Origin: Acetivibrio alkalicellulosi
GTDB taxonomy: Bacteria > Bacillota > Clostridia > Acetivibrionales > Acetivibrionaceae
NCBI GenBank assembly: GCA_008125075.1
Contig: VLTH01000002.1
Location: 1,657,451-1,721,450 of the forward strand
DNA length: 64,000 nt
Direction of reading: 5' to 3'
Shown piece after piece: positions 57,080-63,352 of this stretch (position 1 is the stretch's first letter; each line of letters opens with the position of its first letter). The position numbers and the translations under genes were made by a program. The notes under the pieces were generated by a model. The model made no database searches. It had not been told where the DNA came from and saw nothing but the letters and a program-made list of their open reading frames with translations.

Positions 57080-57463
57080 TTAATTATGTAGAATAAATTC
57101 AATACTATATGAAGCATCATTTTCTACTGCCTCTACATTAACTTTCCAGTTTCCTTCCATTAATTCTAATGATTCTTTTTCAAATACCATTAAATCACTT
57201 TTTAAAACCTGTTCATCAACCACTTTTTCATCTGGATTAACTAATGAAACTTCTATAATACTATCAGCTGTCCGATTAGTTACAACTATTGATATCTTTT
57301 TGTATCCATCAATAGCAAAAAAATCATGTGTATTTATTCCTTCTCCATAAGATACTTGGGCTGATATAACATACTTTTTATTTTTGATTGCATTACCCAA
57401 AAACACTCCTCCGATAATTAATATGATTAAAATACTGATTAAAATAATAGGTTTTTTCTTCAT
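57080..57463 (-). CDS. Small membrane-anchored beta protein of the ABC locus
   Basis: A 127-residue protein with an N-terminal membrane anchor (about 5-24) and an outside beta-rich domain (YVISAQVSYGEGINTHDFFA, then GNWKVNVEAVENDASYSIEF). The role is unknown. It follows the ATPase gene by about 100 bp on the same strand and may be an immunity or accessory protein for the peptide exported by the locus. AGGGGG precedes the start. Confidence 0.6.
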   Translation of the reverse strand: MKKKPIILISILIILIIGGVFLGNAIKNKKYVISAQVSYGEGINTHDFFAIDGYKKISIVVTNRTADSIIEVSLVNPDEKVVDEQVLKSDLMVFEKESLELMEGNWKVNVEAVENDASYSIEFILHN

Positions 57464-57565
57464 AGTGTTCCCCCTTATAAATTTTTTTTTGAAAATTTAA
57501 AAAATACTACATTAGACCCTTCATATATTATTTTACCAATAAATATAATGCAACATTACTTGTTT

Positions 57566-58264
57566 CTATATATCTTTACTGTTGACGCTAAAATTAGAAT
57601 CTATTATTTCTCCATCTGTAATGGTGATTTTTCTGCGACATTTATCTGATACATCTTTATCATGTGTAACAATAATTATGGTTTTACCATTTTCATTTAA
57701 TTCTTTAAAAATATCCAATAGTTGATCTCCATTTTTTTTATCAAGTGCCCCAGTTGGCTCATCAGCTAAAATAATATCTGGATTGTTTACTAATGCTCTT
57801 GCAATTGCTACTCTTTGATTTTGCCCTCCTGATAATTGTCGTGGAGTCTTGTTTATTTTAGATAAAATACCAAGTCTATCTAGTGTTTCATGTATAATTT
57901 TTTTCCTCTTTCTGCGACTAATCCCTGCATATTCAAGAGGTATCTGAACATTTTCATAAACAGAATATGTATCAATTAATGCAAAATGTTGTACGATAAA
58001 GCCAAATTTTTTATTCCTTATTTTAGCTAGTTTACCAGTTTTGTGTTTTGTAATGTCATTGTTTTCAAGAAAATATTTTCCACTATCGAATTCATCAAGA
58101 CATCCAATAATATTAAGTAGTGTTGATTTTCCTGAACCTGATGCACCCATTATAGAAGCAAATTCACCTTCATCTATTTTAAGATTTATATTTTTAAGTG
58201 CTTCAACCTTTGCTTCCCCTTTACCGTATGTTTTATTTATATTTTTTAAATCAATTAATGTCAT
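57566..58264 (-). CDS. ABC ATP-binding protein (LolD/MacB type) of the peptide locus
   Basis: A 232-residue ATPase: Walker A MGASGSGKST, Q-loop FIVQHFALID, signature RQLSGGQNQRVAIARALV, Walker B IILADEPTGALD and H-loop IVTHDKDVS. It belongs to the group that pairs with FtsX-like permeases for antimicrobial-peptide export or resistance; FALIDTYSVYEN is typical of bacteriocin-linked members. It starts 1 nt after the permease stop, with AAGAGTAG upstream. Confidence 0.92.
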   Translation of the reverse strand: MTLIDLKNINKTYGKGEAKVEALKNINLKIDEGEFASIMGASGSGKSTLLNIIGCLDEFDSGKYFLENNDITKHKTGKLAKIRNKKFGFIVQHFALIDTYSVYENVQIPLEYAGISRRKRKKIIHETLDRLGILSKINKTPRQLSGGQNQRVAIARALVNNPDIILADEPTGALDKKNGDQLLDIFKELNENGKTIIIVTHDKDVSDKCRRKITITDGEIIDSNFSVNSKDI

Positions 58265-58265
58265 T

Positions 58266-59576
58266 CTACTCTTTCCTCCTTATCATTTCATTGATGCCCA
58301 TTCTATATATTCTCAGAACAGGTAAAATTGAAACCATTAATAAAAAACTTAATTGAAAAATAATTATATTTAGTAAAATATTATAATCACTTACTATGGA
58401 TTTTTGCAGGAATAATCTTAATATAATCTCTGATAAAAAGGTTGAGGTAATAATTAAATATGCCAATTCCATGACAATTCGTGCAGATAATCTAAACAAA
58501 GTACAGCCTGTCATAATATGTATACCATATTCAGCTGTTCTTTTATTTATATGATTTAAAGTAGATAGTATAATCCCTCCACCAGAAAAAATTATAATAA
58601 TTAAAAAAATAATATCATAATATTTAAATAATTTTGACCGTAATGATAAAATATAATCTATATAATAATCTACGTTTTTCAATCTGAAATTAAAGGATTC
58701 TCTTATTTTCCCCTCAATATCATGTATAATCCTATCAATATCTTGATTCTCTGTTGGTATTATATATGAACTAAGTAGATTATTTCGGATTTTCATAGCA
58801 TTTTGAACAATAGAATTTTCATCATTGCTATTAAATTCAGTTAGATTCTTTTGTATGGGGATAATAAATACACTACTAATATCAGTACCTTTTAATTGAC
58901 CATAAAGAGAATTTGTTGGAATATAAAAAGCTTCACTATTAATAAACCCTTTTACTATATATTTATCTTTAGAATTAGACCAAGCATCAGAATAGTTAAT
59001 TACATCTCCTAAGCTATAGTACTCTTTTAAATTTTCACCTAGCAAAATAGGCGTTTCTAAATTATTTTCCAATTCAAAATCTTCTTTTGATAAAGAACTT
59101 CCTTCAATAATGTTATAATCAAAATGCCTTAAAAACTTATAATTTACATAGAGATTGTTGTTATAAAGAAGATATGATTGATTGTCACGAGATACACTTC
59201 TTGTTCTCATTTCATTATATTTTGAAGTTATTGTTCTACTTATTTGATTTTCTTCTAAAAATAATGTGCCTACTTCACCAGTTACATAATCAAACTCATC
59301 TGATTCAGTTAAATATATATAACTTTCGCTAAGATTTTTATTAAGTTCTAAGTCAGAAAACTCGTTTATTATTGTTTGGGTTTCATCAAAATCTTCGAAA
59401 ACATAAAATTCTTTATCTGAATAAAAACTGTTCATATGTATAACCCCTTCTTTTAAATCATGTTTAATTTCAAAAGAAAGTGTCAAAAAAACCAAGGAAG
59501 TAGCAATCTGAACAATAATTATTAGTGAATACAGTAATCTTTTTGAAATTCCGAAAAATGTATATTTTATATCCAT
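58266..59576 (-). CDS. FtsX-like permease, second subunit
   Basis: A 436-residue membrane protein: an N-terminal helix (about 12-32), a large outside domain (about 35-310) and three C-terminal helices, including GGIILSTLNHINKRTAEYGI and the coupling loop GCTLFRLSARIVMELAYLII. This is the FtsX/MacB_PCD arrangement with divergent sequence. It sits between the first permease (10 nt upstream) and the ATPase (1 nt downstream), so the two permeases probably pair as a heterodimer. Confidence 0.85.
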   Translation of the reverse strand: MDIKYTFFGISKRLLYSLIIIVQIATSLVFLTLSFEIKHDLKEGVIHMNSFYSDKEFYVFEDFDETQTIINEFSDLELNKNLSESYIYLTESDEFDYVTGEVGTLFLEENQISRTITSKYNEMRTRSVSRDNQSYLLYNNNLYVNYKFLRHFDYNIIEGSSLSKEDFELENNLETPILLGENLKEYYSLGDVINYSDAWSNSKDKYIVKGFINSEAFYIPTNSLYGQLKGTDISSVFIIPIQKNLTEFNSNDENSIVQNAMKIRNNLLSSYIIPTENQDIDRIIHDIEGKIRESFNFRLKNVDYYIDYILSLRSKLFKYYDIIFLIIIIFSGGGIILSTLNHINKRTAEYGIHIMTGCTLFRLSARIVMELAYLIITSTFLSEIILRLFLQKSIVSDYNILLNIIIFQLSFLLMVSILPVLRIYRMGINEMIRRKE

Positions 59577-59585
59577 TTTAGTCTG

Positions 59586-60644
59586 TCATCCTTTCATTAT
59601 ATCACTTGGAGGTACTTTAAGTGTTCTTGAAGCTGTCGCAATTATTGAGAAAAAAGCAAATGCCAAACAAATTAAAAGTACAATAAAACTTGTAGATATA
59701 TATATATCAGAGTTAAATAAGTTGAGTAAATTAAACTTTATTATTATTATATATACAATAAGACCAGCAAGAAATGAACATGACGCAAAAAACATATATT
59801 CTAAAATTAATCTTTTAATAATTTGAAAGTTTCTTGCACCAAATGCCTTTCGCACTCCAATTTCTTTGCGCTTTGAATCAATCCAGTACACACTAATACT
59901 TGCAGTGTTTAGAAAAAGCACAATAAATAACACTACCAAAGTAATCACAACCATATTATAATCTCGCATTACACTAGCTAATGCACTTGAAGATTCTTTA
60001 TCATCTAAAAATTCTATTTCGACATTTAAGTTTTGTTTTAATGAATTAGTTATTTTTAATAAATCTGATTCATTTTCTGTGTATATACTCCATTCGTCTT
60101 CAATGTTTTCAGGTGATTCATTTGCTAGATAAGGTAATAAATTTATATAAAACTTATAATCATATATGGTATCTTTATTTTGATACCCCATAATTCCAAT
60201 AAGTTTATACTCCACTCCATTATAAAATATGTAATCATTACCACTTTTGCTAATTGTACCAAAATGTTTAACAAGGGTTTTGTTCCCAACCATAACTGGT
60301 TCTTCAGAGACAAACTCCTCTTCATTAAAGAAACGACCTTCTATTAATTTTGGAGAATCATAGTCAAAATTTTTTATTAATATTGCCTCTCCTTCAAAAG
60401 CCCCTATACTAATATTTCTCTTTGATATAGCTGAATCTTCAAAATCAAACACTAAATATTCCATAAAATTTGGAATTTGTACATTTTTAATGTTCAAGTT
60501 CCTTGCATCTTTTGAAAACAACAAATTTTTTGTAACATTGTCACGATATGCAGTTTCTAAAGTAGATATACATAACGAACTCATTATAGCTAAAACAAAA
60601 AACAAAGCAACTATAAAAAATGAATTTCTCATATTACTTTTCAT
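59586..60644 (-). CDS. FtsX-like permease, first subunit
   Basis: A 352-residue permease with an N-terminal helix (about 8-28), an outside domain (about 35-215) and three helices. It has the classic coupling segment YWIDSKRKEIGVRKAFGARN, then FQIIKRLILEYMFF. This motif is diagnostic for the MacB/FtsX superfamily. Preceded by GGGAGATA. It begins the export part of the locus, about 200 bp after the peptide gene, with a palindrome between. Confidence 0.9.
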   Translation of the reverse strand: MKSNMRNSFFIVALFFVLAIMSSLCISTLETAYRDNVTKNLLFSKDARNLNIKNVQIPNFMEYLVFDFEDSAISKRNISIGAFEGEAILIKNFDYDSPKLIEGRFFNEEEFVSEEPVMVGNKTLVKHFGTISKSGNDYIFYNGVEYKLIGIMGYQNKDTIYDYKFYINLLPYLANESPENIEDEWSIYTENESDLLKITNSLKQNLNVEIEFLDDKESSSALASVMRDYNMVVITLVVLFIVLFLNTASISVYWIDSKRKEIGVRKAFGARNFQIIKRLILEYMFFASCSFLAGLIVYIIIIKFNLLNLFNSDIYISTSFIVLLICLAFAFFSIIATASRTLKVPPSDIMKG

Positions 60645-60784
60645 AAATGTATCTCCCTACGAGTTAAGTATATTTTACAGCTTATATTTTAACATATTTA
60701 TTTTTTTCTTACAATTCAAATTGAAACAAAATCTCAAGAATTTAAACCATTTGATTTTAATGAATATTTCATTAAATTATTAAA

Positions 60785-60830
60785 AATTACACACAACAAA
60801 AATAATATATTATTTTTGTTGTGTGTAATT
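60785..60830. terminator. Perfect 46-bp palindrome between peptide and permease genes
   Basis: The arms 60785-60807 and 60808-60830 are exactly complementary (AATTACACACAACAAAAATA, then ATA, against its complement). It sits 13 nt past the peptide stop. It can form a 23-bp hairpin and may partly terminate transcription, so that the peptide is made in excess over the transporter. A regulatory binding site is an alternative. Confidence 0.85.
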
Positions 60831-60842
60831 GTCATTTGATTT

Positions 60843-61124
60843 TTAATTTATTCGATCATACCATGAAGTTGCATTTCCTATTCCTTGAATAACAGGCGTT
60901 TGAGTATATGAAACTCCACTTCTTGATGCTTGAGTAATCCCAATTTTCATAACAGTCATATGATTTACATTTTCCCACTCAGTCCAAGCATATCCAGCTG
61001 CATATGGACCAAATCTATTAACATCTGCTCCGTGAATAGCACTTGCACTTGTAATAAATGGTACAGAAGCTACACAACCTACTATTAATCCAGTTGCCAA
61101 TATGGCTTTAATTTTTTTAATCAT
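60843..61124 (-). CDS. Secreted peptide, lactococcin 972-like
   Basis: A 93-residue precursor. ATG 61124 is chosen (AAGGGG 7 nt upstream; the longer frame begins TTG 61142). It has a Sec signal (MIKKIKAILATGLIVGCVAS, then VPFITSASA, with cleavage expected after ASA). The mature ~64 residues are rich in Trp/Tyr/Gly: GYAWTEWENVNHMTV, then SRSGVSYTQTPVIQGIGNAT and SWYDRIN. Length, aromatic spacing, SG and GN..WY endings resemble lactococcin 972-type bacteriocins, which block lipid II. The overall identity is low. It is followed by an ABC system like those of lactococcin-972 loci. Confidence 0.68.
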   Translation of the reverse strand: MIKKIKAILATGLIVGCVASVPFITSASAIHGADVNRFGPYAAGYAWTEWENVNHMTVMKIGITQASRSGVSYTQTPVIQGIGNATSWYDRIN

Positions 61125-61142: not shown

Positions 61143-61765
61143 TAATTTTTTTGTTAACTTTAATACTTACTTTACAAAACCTACTTTTCATCCAATTGGA
61201 AATTCAAATGTACTTTCTAATAACTTCTTTCCTTGATTTTTGATATCAGCAACTGATACACTTTAACTAATTTGGAATATTCCTTTAGCTTCGTAATCTA
61301 TTATATATATATATAATAAATGTCAATATATTTCTTGAGTTTTTTTTACATTTTTTCAGTATTTTTTGATTAAAAATGTTTTTTTGCATGTTACTATGTT
61401 ATTTAATTCGCTTTTTAAATTATAACTTTTTCATTTTTAATCACCAAGATTAATTAAGTATATTAATTATGTCCTTCAAACTAAATTTATATATGTTAAA
61501 CTTATGTTATTAAAAACTCATAAACAAAAGAACACTCTATGAAGCTTGGAGAAGAATCAACAAGGCAGCAGTAGCAACTAATAAGAATTTGCTTTTATTA
61601 TTATAATATAAATATAATTTAACCCACTATATAACATAAATGCAACATAAAAATCCATAATAACCTATAATTGTTTAAGTAATGACATATTATTTCAATA
61701 CTTATTCTTAAACTTTTTATGAGAGCTTAAAATTAACATGGTAAAATAGATCCTGCAATAAAATA
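61143..61765. other. Promoter/leader region of the peptide gene
   Basis: Very AT-rich. On the minus strand TTGACA (about 61321-61326) is followed after 15 bp by TATAAT, a possible promoter ~175 nt upstream of the peptide start. No other gene was seen. A TA-dinucleotide run (61299-61315) lies in the spacer. Confidence 0.4.
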
Positions 61766-62526
61766 TTAAAAATCATCGTAGGGATTTCCCTGTGAAAATT
61801 CATCTTCATATTTTGCATTGTAAACGTCTTCATAATACACTTGCTCTAGATAAGAGTATCCACAAGCTGTAGTTTTATTTTTTACAAGTGGGTCATGGTT
61901 GTTCCATAAGTTAAGATGAATCAGATAACCTCTTCTTCCATCCTCTATAAATGCTATAATTTTCATTTTGCATGAACATTTTGGACTCTTTAGAATTTCT
62001 AGAACTTCATTAGTTTCATCAATTAACTCATCATCGATTAACTTACCTCTATACTTATAATAGTAATGTGCTATTTCCATCCATTCAATCCAGATAAACG
62101 AATATAATGATTCTAAAAACCAATCTCCCCAGTATGTTGGTTTAGTATCATTTGGGGAATTGTGTTTGGTAAAATATCCTTTACACAGTAGGCTGGCGGA
62201 AATTTTAAATCATGTACATCATTTACATTTTTTCCATATTGTAATATTGCCATTGCTCCACATACCCAGTTTAGGTAAGTTTCCATATTAAGGCAATAAA
62301 ACTTTCATCGTCAATACGCCTTCGAAGTATTCCTATAATGTCAATGTTTTTTTTTAATGGTTAGACATATAGCCTAACCTATATACAACCTAAAGTCCTC
62401 TCAAAGCATCTTTGTACAACCCACATTCACTAATTCTTCTAAATTTCGGTTTAGCATTTGATTTCTCCAAGTAACTTTCAAAATCTTTGAATACTGGCAC
62501 AGCTCCATAGAGACCAAACGAAAACT
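61766..62526 (-). pseudogene. Broken gene of about 250 codons, unknown family
   Basis: Four minus-strand pieces in different frames join into one protein-like sequence. They are FGLYGAVPVFKDFESYLEKS (from about 62518), ILRRRIDDESFIALI (near 62310), TYLNWVCGAMAILQYGKNVN, then TYWGDWFLESLYSFIWIEWM, continuing into the 104-codon ORF MEIAHYYYKYRGKLIDDELI. A stop near 62391 and at least two shifts (near 62295 and 62180) interrupt it. I do not recognise the family. Confidence 0.55.
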
Positions 62527-62544
62527 ATTATAATGTATAATGAC

Positions 62545-63352
62545 TTAATTTGCTTGTAAATCTTTCATCTCAGCTAGTGTCAATCCAGTAACTTCTGATA
62601 TAGTGTTATCATCAATTCCTTTTGATTTCATTTTTCTAGCAATTTCAAGTTTTGTTCCTGTAATCCTTGTTATTTCATCATGAATCTGTTTTTCTCTCAG
62701 TTCATAGTATCTTACCATTTCTTCGTTTGTTCCTAAGTATTCAATCACCTTTTCAGCTTTTTCAATTGCGGACTCTTCCTTTATTGCCATTTCTAAAACC
62801 TCCTTTGGCGAATCTTCCAAAAATAACAACCATCTATCAATTGGTTTTTTAAAATCAGGCTGAACTTTTTTAAATTTTGAAAGCTCCACAAAATGTATTT
62901 CCAAAACATCTGTTAGTTTATAATCCTTGTTGCTATCTTCCCATAAATGAAAAACTGTATGATAATCAATTATTCCCACATAGTCAAAATCAAGTATATT
63001 AATGGTAATTGTTTTTTTTAAATCATTAAAGGGTCTTCCTTCTCCTAATTGGTCAGAGAATAGCTTTGCCCAATAAAAAAGAGTTCGTTTATCCATGTTA
63101 TATTGATTAATCAGTTGTACTTCAATTGTGATTTGAACTCCTGCAACTGTTCTACCCAAAACATCAACAATCCCCTGTTTATCTTCCATTCTGTCTTTTT
63201 CCAGCTTCGTATTCTCAATTATTTCTATATCCTCAAGTAAATTATCGTCACTTAATTCCATTATAGCATTTAAAAGCTTATTAAAATATCTTTATTTTCC
63301 TTGCGTCCGAATATTCGTTGAAATATAAAATCATTCTTAACCTTTTTTTCAT
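62545..63352 (-). pseudogene. Rpn/PD-(D/E)XK transposase-like nuclease with frameshifts
   Basis: The main frame (62545-63261, 238 codons) begins MELSDDNLLEDIEIIENTKL, then QGIVDVLGRTVAGVQITIEV, QLINQYNMDKRTLFYWAKLF and a C-terminal MKSKGIDDNTISEVTGLTLA. This is the Rpn/PDDEXK_2 family; D...EIQ catalytic residues are present (here TIEVQ). The missing N-terminus lies in another frame (NDFIFQRIFGRKENKDILIS) up to ATG 63352. Shifts occur near 63272 (a T lost before LNAI) and near 63340. It is likely inactive or a decayed mobile-nuclease gene. Confidence 0.75.

Follow-up and report, generated by a model that had tools for sequence, protein, structure and literature searches.

A candidate bacteriocin-like peptide locus with a two-chain MacB/FtsX-type transporter in Acetivibrio alkalicellulosi

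Organization of the locus

Minus-strand genes at positions 57080–61124 of a 64,000-nucleotide (nt) stretch of the Acetivibrio alkalicellulosi genome (contig VLTH01000002.1; the whole stretch is hereafter the window) encode, in order, a 93-amino-acid (aa) secreted peptide precursor, two permeases (P1 and P2), an ATP-binding cassette (ABC) ATPase and a 127-aa anchored protein, with a 46-bp palindrome between the peptide gene and P1 (Table 1). An original prediction, made from the letters of the stretch alone, had listed a Sec-type precursor, the palindrome, two permeases, an ATPase and an anchored protein on one strand, and all of these are present in the sequence. Together with similar gene sets that recur in related bacteria, the locus seems to be a little-described relative of the lactococcin 972 loci, which pair a bacteriocin with immunity. 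We favour, with moderate confidence, a bacteriocin-like locus in which a putative bacteriocin-like peptide, whose antibacterial action we infer, is paired with a two-chain ABC transporter that serves self-protection.

The peptide gene has an ATG start with AAAAGGGG immediately upstream as ribosome-binding site. Assuming cleavage after ASA (placed by eye), the mature peptide has 64 aa, a mass of 7.1 kDa and an isoelectric point of 6.9. Its Sec-like N-terminus was called by a home-made script rule and by eye and, together with the precursor length, agrees with the ~90-aa Sec-type precursor of lactococcin 972 bacteriocins. The mature part had been described as aromatic-rich, which is true only mildly: F, W, Y and H make up 10 of its 64 residues (16%), compared with 21% in lactococcin 972. 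Intergenic gaps measure 198 nt between peptide and P1, 9 nt between P1 and P2, 1 nt between P2 and the ATPase and 102 nt before the 127-aa gene. Promoter-like sites are not in excess in a scan of the region (32 versus 39 in shuffles), the 15-nt spacing of the possible promoter in Table 1 lying outside the range of that scan. No XRE-type regulator was seen near the operon in the list of open reading frames (ORFs), inspected by eye only.

Table 1. Features of the locus, in coordinates of the window
Feature	Position	Strand	Basis
Precursor of the small secreted peptide, 93 aa (predicted mature part 64 aa)	60843..61124	-	ORF, ribosome-binding site, Sec-like N-terminus
Part coding for the putative signal peptide, 29 aa, last residues ASA	61038..61124	-	Read from translation
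Perfect 46-bp palindrome, hairpin 3′ of the peptide gene	60785..60830	-	Folding, terminator scan; likewise placed in related loci
P1, FtsX/MacB-type permease, 352 aa	59586..60644	-	PF02687, 51.2 bits; 1+3 hydrophobic segments; relatives
P2, second FtsX-type permease, 436 aa	58266..59576	-	Pfam, 10.2 bits (weak); homology to P1; 1+3 segments; relatives
ABC ATPase, 232 aa	57566..58264	-	PF00005, 114 bits; TIGR03608, 231.9 bits (below cut-off)
127-aa protein with a single N-terminal anchor	57080..57463	-	No family; perhaps co-transcribed, non-recurring
Possible promoter TTGACA-15-TATAAT 5′ of the peptide gene	61300..61326	-	By eye

Two permease chains and their ATPase

P1 has the two features of FtsX/MacB-type permeases, a PF02687 domain (a clear match against the cut-off of 25.5 bits) and four hydrophobic segments in a 1+3 layout. 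P2 shares the four segments and the layout; its PF02687 score is far under the cut-off, and profile-profile comparison finds it homologous to P1 (E 4e-14). The membrane protein of lactococcin 972 loci is a single large one (TIGR01654). P1 scores 11.2 bits on that model, whose cut-off is 189.35, and the window's own genome (G000) holds no match to it at E ≤ 1e-10. Our comparison set consists of eight TIGR01654-type proteins from 6 genomes (all matches at E ≤ 1e-10, 2 of them above the curated cut-off), which have 6–8 hydrophobic segments, arranged 1+3 then 1+3 where the protein is complete. A P1 profile aligns to residues 7–280 of the one-piece protein, in its N-terminal half (E 4e-10), and a P2 profile to residues 351–734, in its C-terminal half (E 1.1e-5), and we therefore read P1–P2 as the one-piece machine in separate chains. 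Judged by these alignments, the pair looks like a two-chain form of the lactococcin-972-type membrane protein, which upholds the earlier suggestion that the membrane part is split.

One locus in our collection of related Bacillota loci (numbered with the prefix L), L124, has both forms: peptide, P1, P2 and ATPase are followed directly by a TIGR01654 protein (210.8 bits, above cut-off) and its ATPase, and an ATPase above the TIGR03608 cut-off is present. Across L124:5088-15972 there are in fact two near-identical tandem P1–P2–ATPase copies, with almost identical ATPases, ahead of the one-piece protein and its ATPase. Other arrangements also occur. At L136:4384-7376, a 647-aa ORF that is apparently a fusion of P2 and the ATPase follows P1 and a Sec-type ORF of 118 aa, and L142:4434-8056, a PF09683-type locus (L143 peptide), has a one-piece membrane protein and, preceding the peptide, an additional P1-like ORF of 289 aa (22 bits).

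The window ATPase carries Walker A and LSGGQ motifs (found by script) and IILADEPT (by eye). On TIGR03608, the subfamily nearest to it, the ATPases of two one-piece proteins pass the cut-off of 254.85 bits (263.7 and 272.3 bits), while three split-module ATPases fail it (237.2, 231.5 and 225.8 bits) and that of L028 scores too low to be listed. In a midpoint-rooted tree of 50 ATPases, 43 split and 3 fused rows fall on opposite sides of a 100/100 branch, with only those three rows standing for the fused form and with four rows unlabelled, of which L033 is placed with the fused rows at a weak fork of the root. Scores and tree together set the split and one-piece forms apart. The nearest relatives of the window ATPase in the tree are those of L114 and L107. 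PADLOC returned generic ATPase matches only, and blastn of the operon against plasmids gave 494 records, of which the 5 listed match the ATPase part.

Like MacB/FtsX-type and ADOP duplicated permeases (PF02687, TIGR03434), the module has the 1+3 layout, an FtsX domain in P1 and a MacB-scoring ATPase; unlike them, it has two permease chains that differ from each other, its ATPase is a separate protein, and a small secreted peptide takes the place of efflux partners. In a second possible role, the transporter would release, fold or detach the peptide from the membrane after Sec export, in the manner of LolCDE or MacB, and the peptide may still be a bacteriocin. The NCBI name of TIGR03608, "putative bacteriocin export", speaks for such a role, as do high scores of the window ATPase on the MacB and LolD models (253.5 bits on MacB, where the cut-off of 966 was set for the fused protein). 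We consider it fairly unlikely, given that the peptide carries its own Sec signal and that the transporter outlives the peptide in L104, L029 and L030 (see below), which is unexpected for an exporter of that peptide.

Recurrence of the module and of the hairpin

At E ≤ 1e-12, a P2 profile has matches in 27 genomes among 391 sampled from the class and in 40 among 348 from the phylum; the two samples overlap, and the weaker matches may be other permeases. Loci of the stronger P2 matches, the window and four further loci gave 43 P1–P2 modules, with some redundancy (L104 and L148 represent a single contig, and L034 is nearly identical to L146). Searches for related loci with P2 alone and tblastn of P1 against plasmids gave nothing useful. 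A small Sec-type ORF lies at most 250 nt upstream of P1 in 18/43 modules, compared with 8/187 control genes (p 1e-9), the controls being further genes of these loci that encode 200 aa or more; the count is 16/40 (p 1e-8) when the window and two near-duplicates are left out. Homology adds peptides in L138, L132 and the contig-edge L086, all missed by the Sec rule, and 21/43 modules thus have a peptide. Two near relatives, L117 from the same genus and L122 from the same family, have a peptide, and one module lies on a Paenibacillus polymyxa plasmid with its peptide annotated as a hypothetical protein. A check for co-occurrence of the five genes had been proposed: peptide, P1, P2 and ATPase do recur together in other genomes, whereas the 127-aa protein was seen in no other module.

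These counts bear on a third possibility, that the neighbourhood is due to chance, peptide and transporter being separate transcription units and the palindrome an ordinary terminator. Such an arrangement would suit an orphan peptide, a hairpin with a terminator-like T-tract and a 198-nt gap that is the widest among peptide-bearing modules. The order nevertheless recurs in 17/42 other modules against 8/187 control genes, L117 and L122 included, and we regard coincidence as very doubtful.

The palindrome forms a 21-bp stem with a 4-nt loop and no mismatch, beginning 12 nt past the peptide stop. The 121-nt stretch around it folds at a z of −6.3, with 0/200 dinucleotide shuffles as stable, and the region has two terminator-like sites, namely the palindrome on each strand, where shuffles give 0.8. 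It may be an internal terminator or an mRNA-stabilising stem-loop. Hairpins also occupy the peptide–P1 gap in related loci: 12 of 15 such gaps have one, 10 at z ≤ −3 and two (L121, L124) at about −2.5, and the hairpin-energy test finds none in L036, L116 and L128. This set of gaps omits the near-duplicate L034, the overlapping L031, L131 (18-nt gap) and the later-recognised L138, L132 and L086. The hairpins start 1–35 nt past the peptide stop, and their sequences are, by eye, unrelated except among close relatives. Among co-directional control gaps, where ordinary terminators will sometimes occur, 28/95 reach z ≤ −3 (mononucleotide shuffles; Fisher p 0.007, and 0.013 without the window). A stricter count of perfect Watson-Crick stems of at least 10 bp gives 6/18 gaps versus 12/112 controls; we relied on hairpin energies in its place because that count disallows GU pairs or bulges.

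Stem-loops 3′ of binding-protein genes in Ruminiclostridium cellulolyticum terminate transcripts early, and the first gene stays in excess (PMC9045158; for this and the other papers cited by PubMed Central (PMC) identifier we draw on part of the text). An excess of peptide mRNA could also come from selective RNA processing (PMC4423207). The importer operons of cellulolytic clostridia have the same layout as the locus studied here, with a secreted first gene, a stem-loop that keeps binding proteins above transporters and two membrane genes; unlike our locus, with its FtsX-type permeases and 64-aa peptide, they encode importer permeases and large binding proteins (PMC9045158). By this likeness the peptide could be a non-antibacterial secreted partner of the transporter (a sensor, signal or substrate-capturing protein) required in excess, as importer binding proteins are. 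We hold this to be improbable. It is established for MacB/FtsX-type permeases that they are not importers; moreover, the peptides are small, are as divergent as the transporters or fall in unrelated groups, and are lost while the transporter stays.

Regulators of XRE type, 304–306 aa long, lie near three split modules (L029:8129-9049, L032:4033-4947 and L124:8185-9105), and one of them has a sub-threshold RNPP C-terminal match. Control of such modules by quorum sensing through XRE/RNPP-type regulators is possible. Their position recalls scb, which a ComR-type regulator precedes (PMC11796350), and we count these regulators, like the plasmid-borne module, in favour of a bacteriocin-like locus.

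Peptide loss, peptide divergence and interpretation

In three modules the peptide gene has decayed or gone and the transporter remains. The related peptide is intact in L146, L034 and L108. L104, of the same close group, retains no more than the final 55 codons (85% identity with L034) and lacks a signal-bearing start. In L029, a peptide remnant of ~52–55 codons lies behind in-frame stops. The gap after the remnant still folds strongly in both, at −25.4 kcal/mol (L104) and −26.1 kcal/mol (L029), energies taken without shuffle comparison. L030, whose P1 is 92% identical to that of L034, has no trace of a peptide. Transporters without a peptide are predicted by an immunity function and not by an export function, and they parallel the pneumococcal genomes, 157 of 571, that have scbBC without scbA (PMC11796350). 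Two smaller observations, both by eye, concern peptide genes elsewhere. A short ORF of L124 (9213-9353) resembles part of the L029 remnant region. At L128:3794-4382 the peptide stops early compared with that of L131, and the bases past the stop seem to encode the missing end; this gene is perhaps another decaying copy.

A bacteriocin-like locus with a self-protection transporter remains the reading that we favour, and the following results weigh against it. No model of Pfam or NCBIfam matches the window peptide at E ≤ 1, while lactococcin 972 itself, the positive control, matches PF09683 at 3.4e-15. Its score on a profile of eight other split-module peptides (1.9 bits) is equalled by 485/2000 shuffles, and its score of 0 on a profile of three lactococcin-972-like peptides by 1721/2000. 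Searches of 147 other genomes found no convincing relative (best E 0.004, within a 294-aa frame). An AlphaFold2 model has one beta hairpin only, at low confidence (predicted local distance difference test, pLDDT, 50), the fold of reference for lactococcin 972 bacteriocins being the beta-sandwich of PDB 2lgn, and a second AlphaFold prediction reached a pLDDT of 40. The P2 profile also aligns to residues 103–335 of the one-piece protein, and slightly better (E 2.7e-6) than to the C-terminal half; it matches both halves because P1 and P2 are related to each other. The window ATPase misses the TIGR03608 cut-off, and 22/43 modules have no peptide that we could find, two of these with remnants. Finally, the functions of B and C are described as unverified in any lactococcin 972 locus (PMC11796350).

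Membership of the lactococcin 972 family, originally suggested as possible, does not survive the profile check: the absent match and the shuffle-level scores rule it out by sequence, and the ATPase is under its cut-off. PF09683 finds nothing at E ≤ 10 in the genome of the window peptide, which has a single real copy there, and has no match among ten scanned peptides or six further split-module peptides. The prediction was to fall if profile search found no similarity to known bacteriocins and the peptide was absent next to homologous ABC genes in other genomes; similarity is indeed lacking, but peptides do adjoin homologous ABC genes elsewhere, homology to the window peptide not being demonstrated among them. 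A candidate motif picked out by eye as common to the window peptide, six others and lactococcin 972 (H, then SGR.[WY], then A.[ST][FWY]Y) was rejected, since it fails against shuffles for the window peptide (485/2000) and for lactococcin 972 (1314/2000). On a profile of the L028, L124, L126 and L031 peptides, only L034 (3/2000) and L108 (2/2000) beat shuffles, and L147 does not (959/2000). The Protein Data Bank (PDB), searched with the L144 peptide and with a peptide profile, gave nothing useful, nor did tblastn of the L144 and L124 peptides against plasmids; tblastn of the window peptide against plasmids returned two chance matches only. Mediterrocin is annotated as a family member and is 18% identical to lactococcin 972, yet its predicted fold is similar (PMC12345188); the window peptide may therefore also share a fold with lactococcin 972.

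Our best reading is that the locus would act like a lactococcin 972 locus. Like those loci (PF09683, TIGR01654, TIGR03608; including streptococcin B scbABC and mediterrocin), it has a ~90-aa Sec-type precursor, membrane protein and ATPase in order, by alignment its P1 and P2 correspond to one half each of their membrane protein, and the transporter occurs without the peptide in some genomes. Unlike them, it has the membrane part in two genes, a peptide outside PF09683, an ATPase under the TIGR03608 cut-off and a strong hairpin between peptide and permease. From its signal peptide, the peptide would leave the cell by Sec and then be cleaved, and the ABC system would therefore not be needed for its export. 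The two permeases and the ATPase would assemble into a complex of MacB/FtsX type, the counterpart of the lactococcin-972 membrane protein plus ATPase with the membrane part in two chains, and this complex may guard the producing cell by pulling the peptide off its membrane or envelope target. Lactococcin 972 itself binds lipid II (PMC8538875). The hairpin would end or protect most transcripts 3′ of the peptide, so that peptide mRNA would be abundant and transporter mRNA scarce.

More tentatively, and with somewhat less than even confidence, we suggest that such loci are widespread, unnamed competition loci of Bacillota, which combine a two-chain self-protection transporter of MacB/FtsX type with small secreted proteins from several groups that look unrelated and with a hairpin setting the ratio of peptide to transporter, and in which the peptide diversifies or is lost and the transporter is kept. 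In the parts consulted of the open PMC literature on lactococcin 972, DUF1430 and FtsX-like permease bacteriocins, we found no description of a two-chain form of the lactococcin-972-type locus. If our reading is true, lactococcin-972-like competition systems extend to loci missed by the current peptide profile, and the transporter offers a route to peptides that elude searches with their own sequences. It would also help to test the roles of membrane protein and ATPase that PMC11796350 calls unverified, each membrane half being separately deletable in the two-chain form.

The 127-aa protein had been proposed as an immunity part. It belongs to no Pfam or NCBIfam family, and no similar protein lies in other modules, although 6/42 modules (window included) have some anchored small ORF behind the ATPase; elsewhere it has weak partial matches in 4/59 other genomes (best E 0.001). 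We therefore rejected it as a recurring immunity gene, and it may be a local addition. Upstream of the operon, window positions 61766-62286 hold two short ORFs that are apparent pieces of one gene, the second weakly DUF6678-like (below cut-off), and positions 62545-63261 a PDDEXK_2 family transposase-like nuclease gene (PF12784, 155 bits). Outside Bacillota, a P2–ATPase pair occurs at L149:132-1491 in a contig of an Actinomycetota metagenome-assembled genome (Candidatus Hydromicrobium). Its ATPase is closest to that of L147, and transposase- and reverse-transcriptase-like ORFs follow the pair (by eye), which suggests transfer or a binning error.

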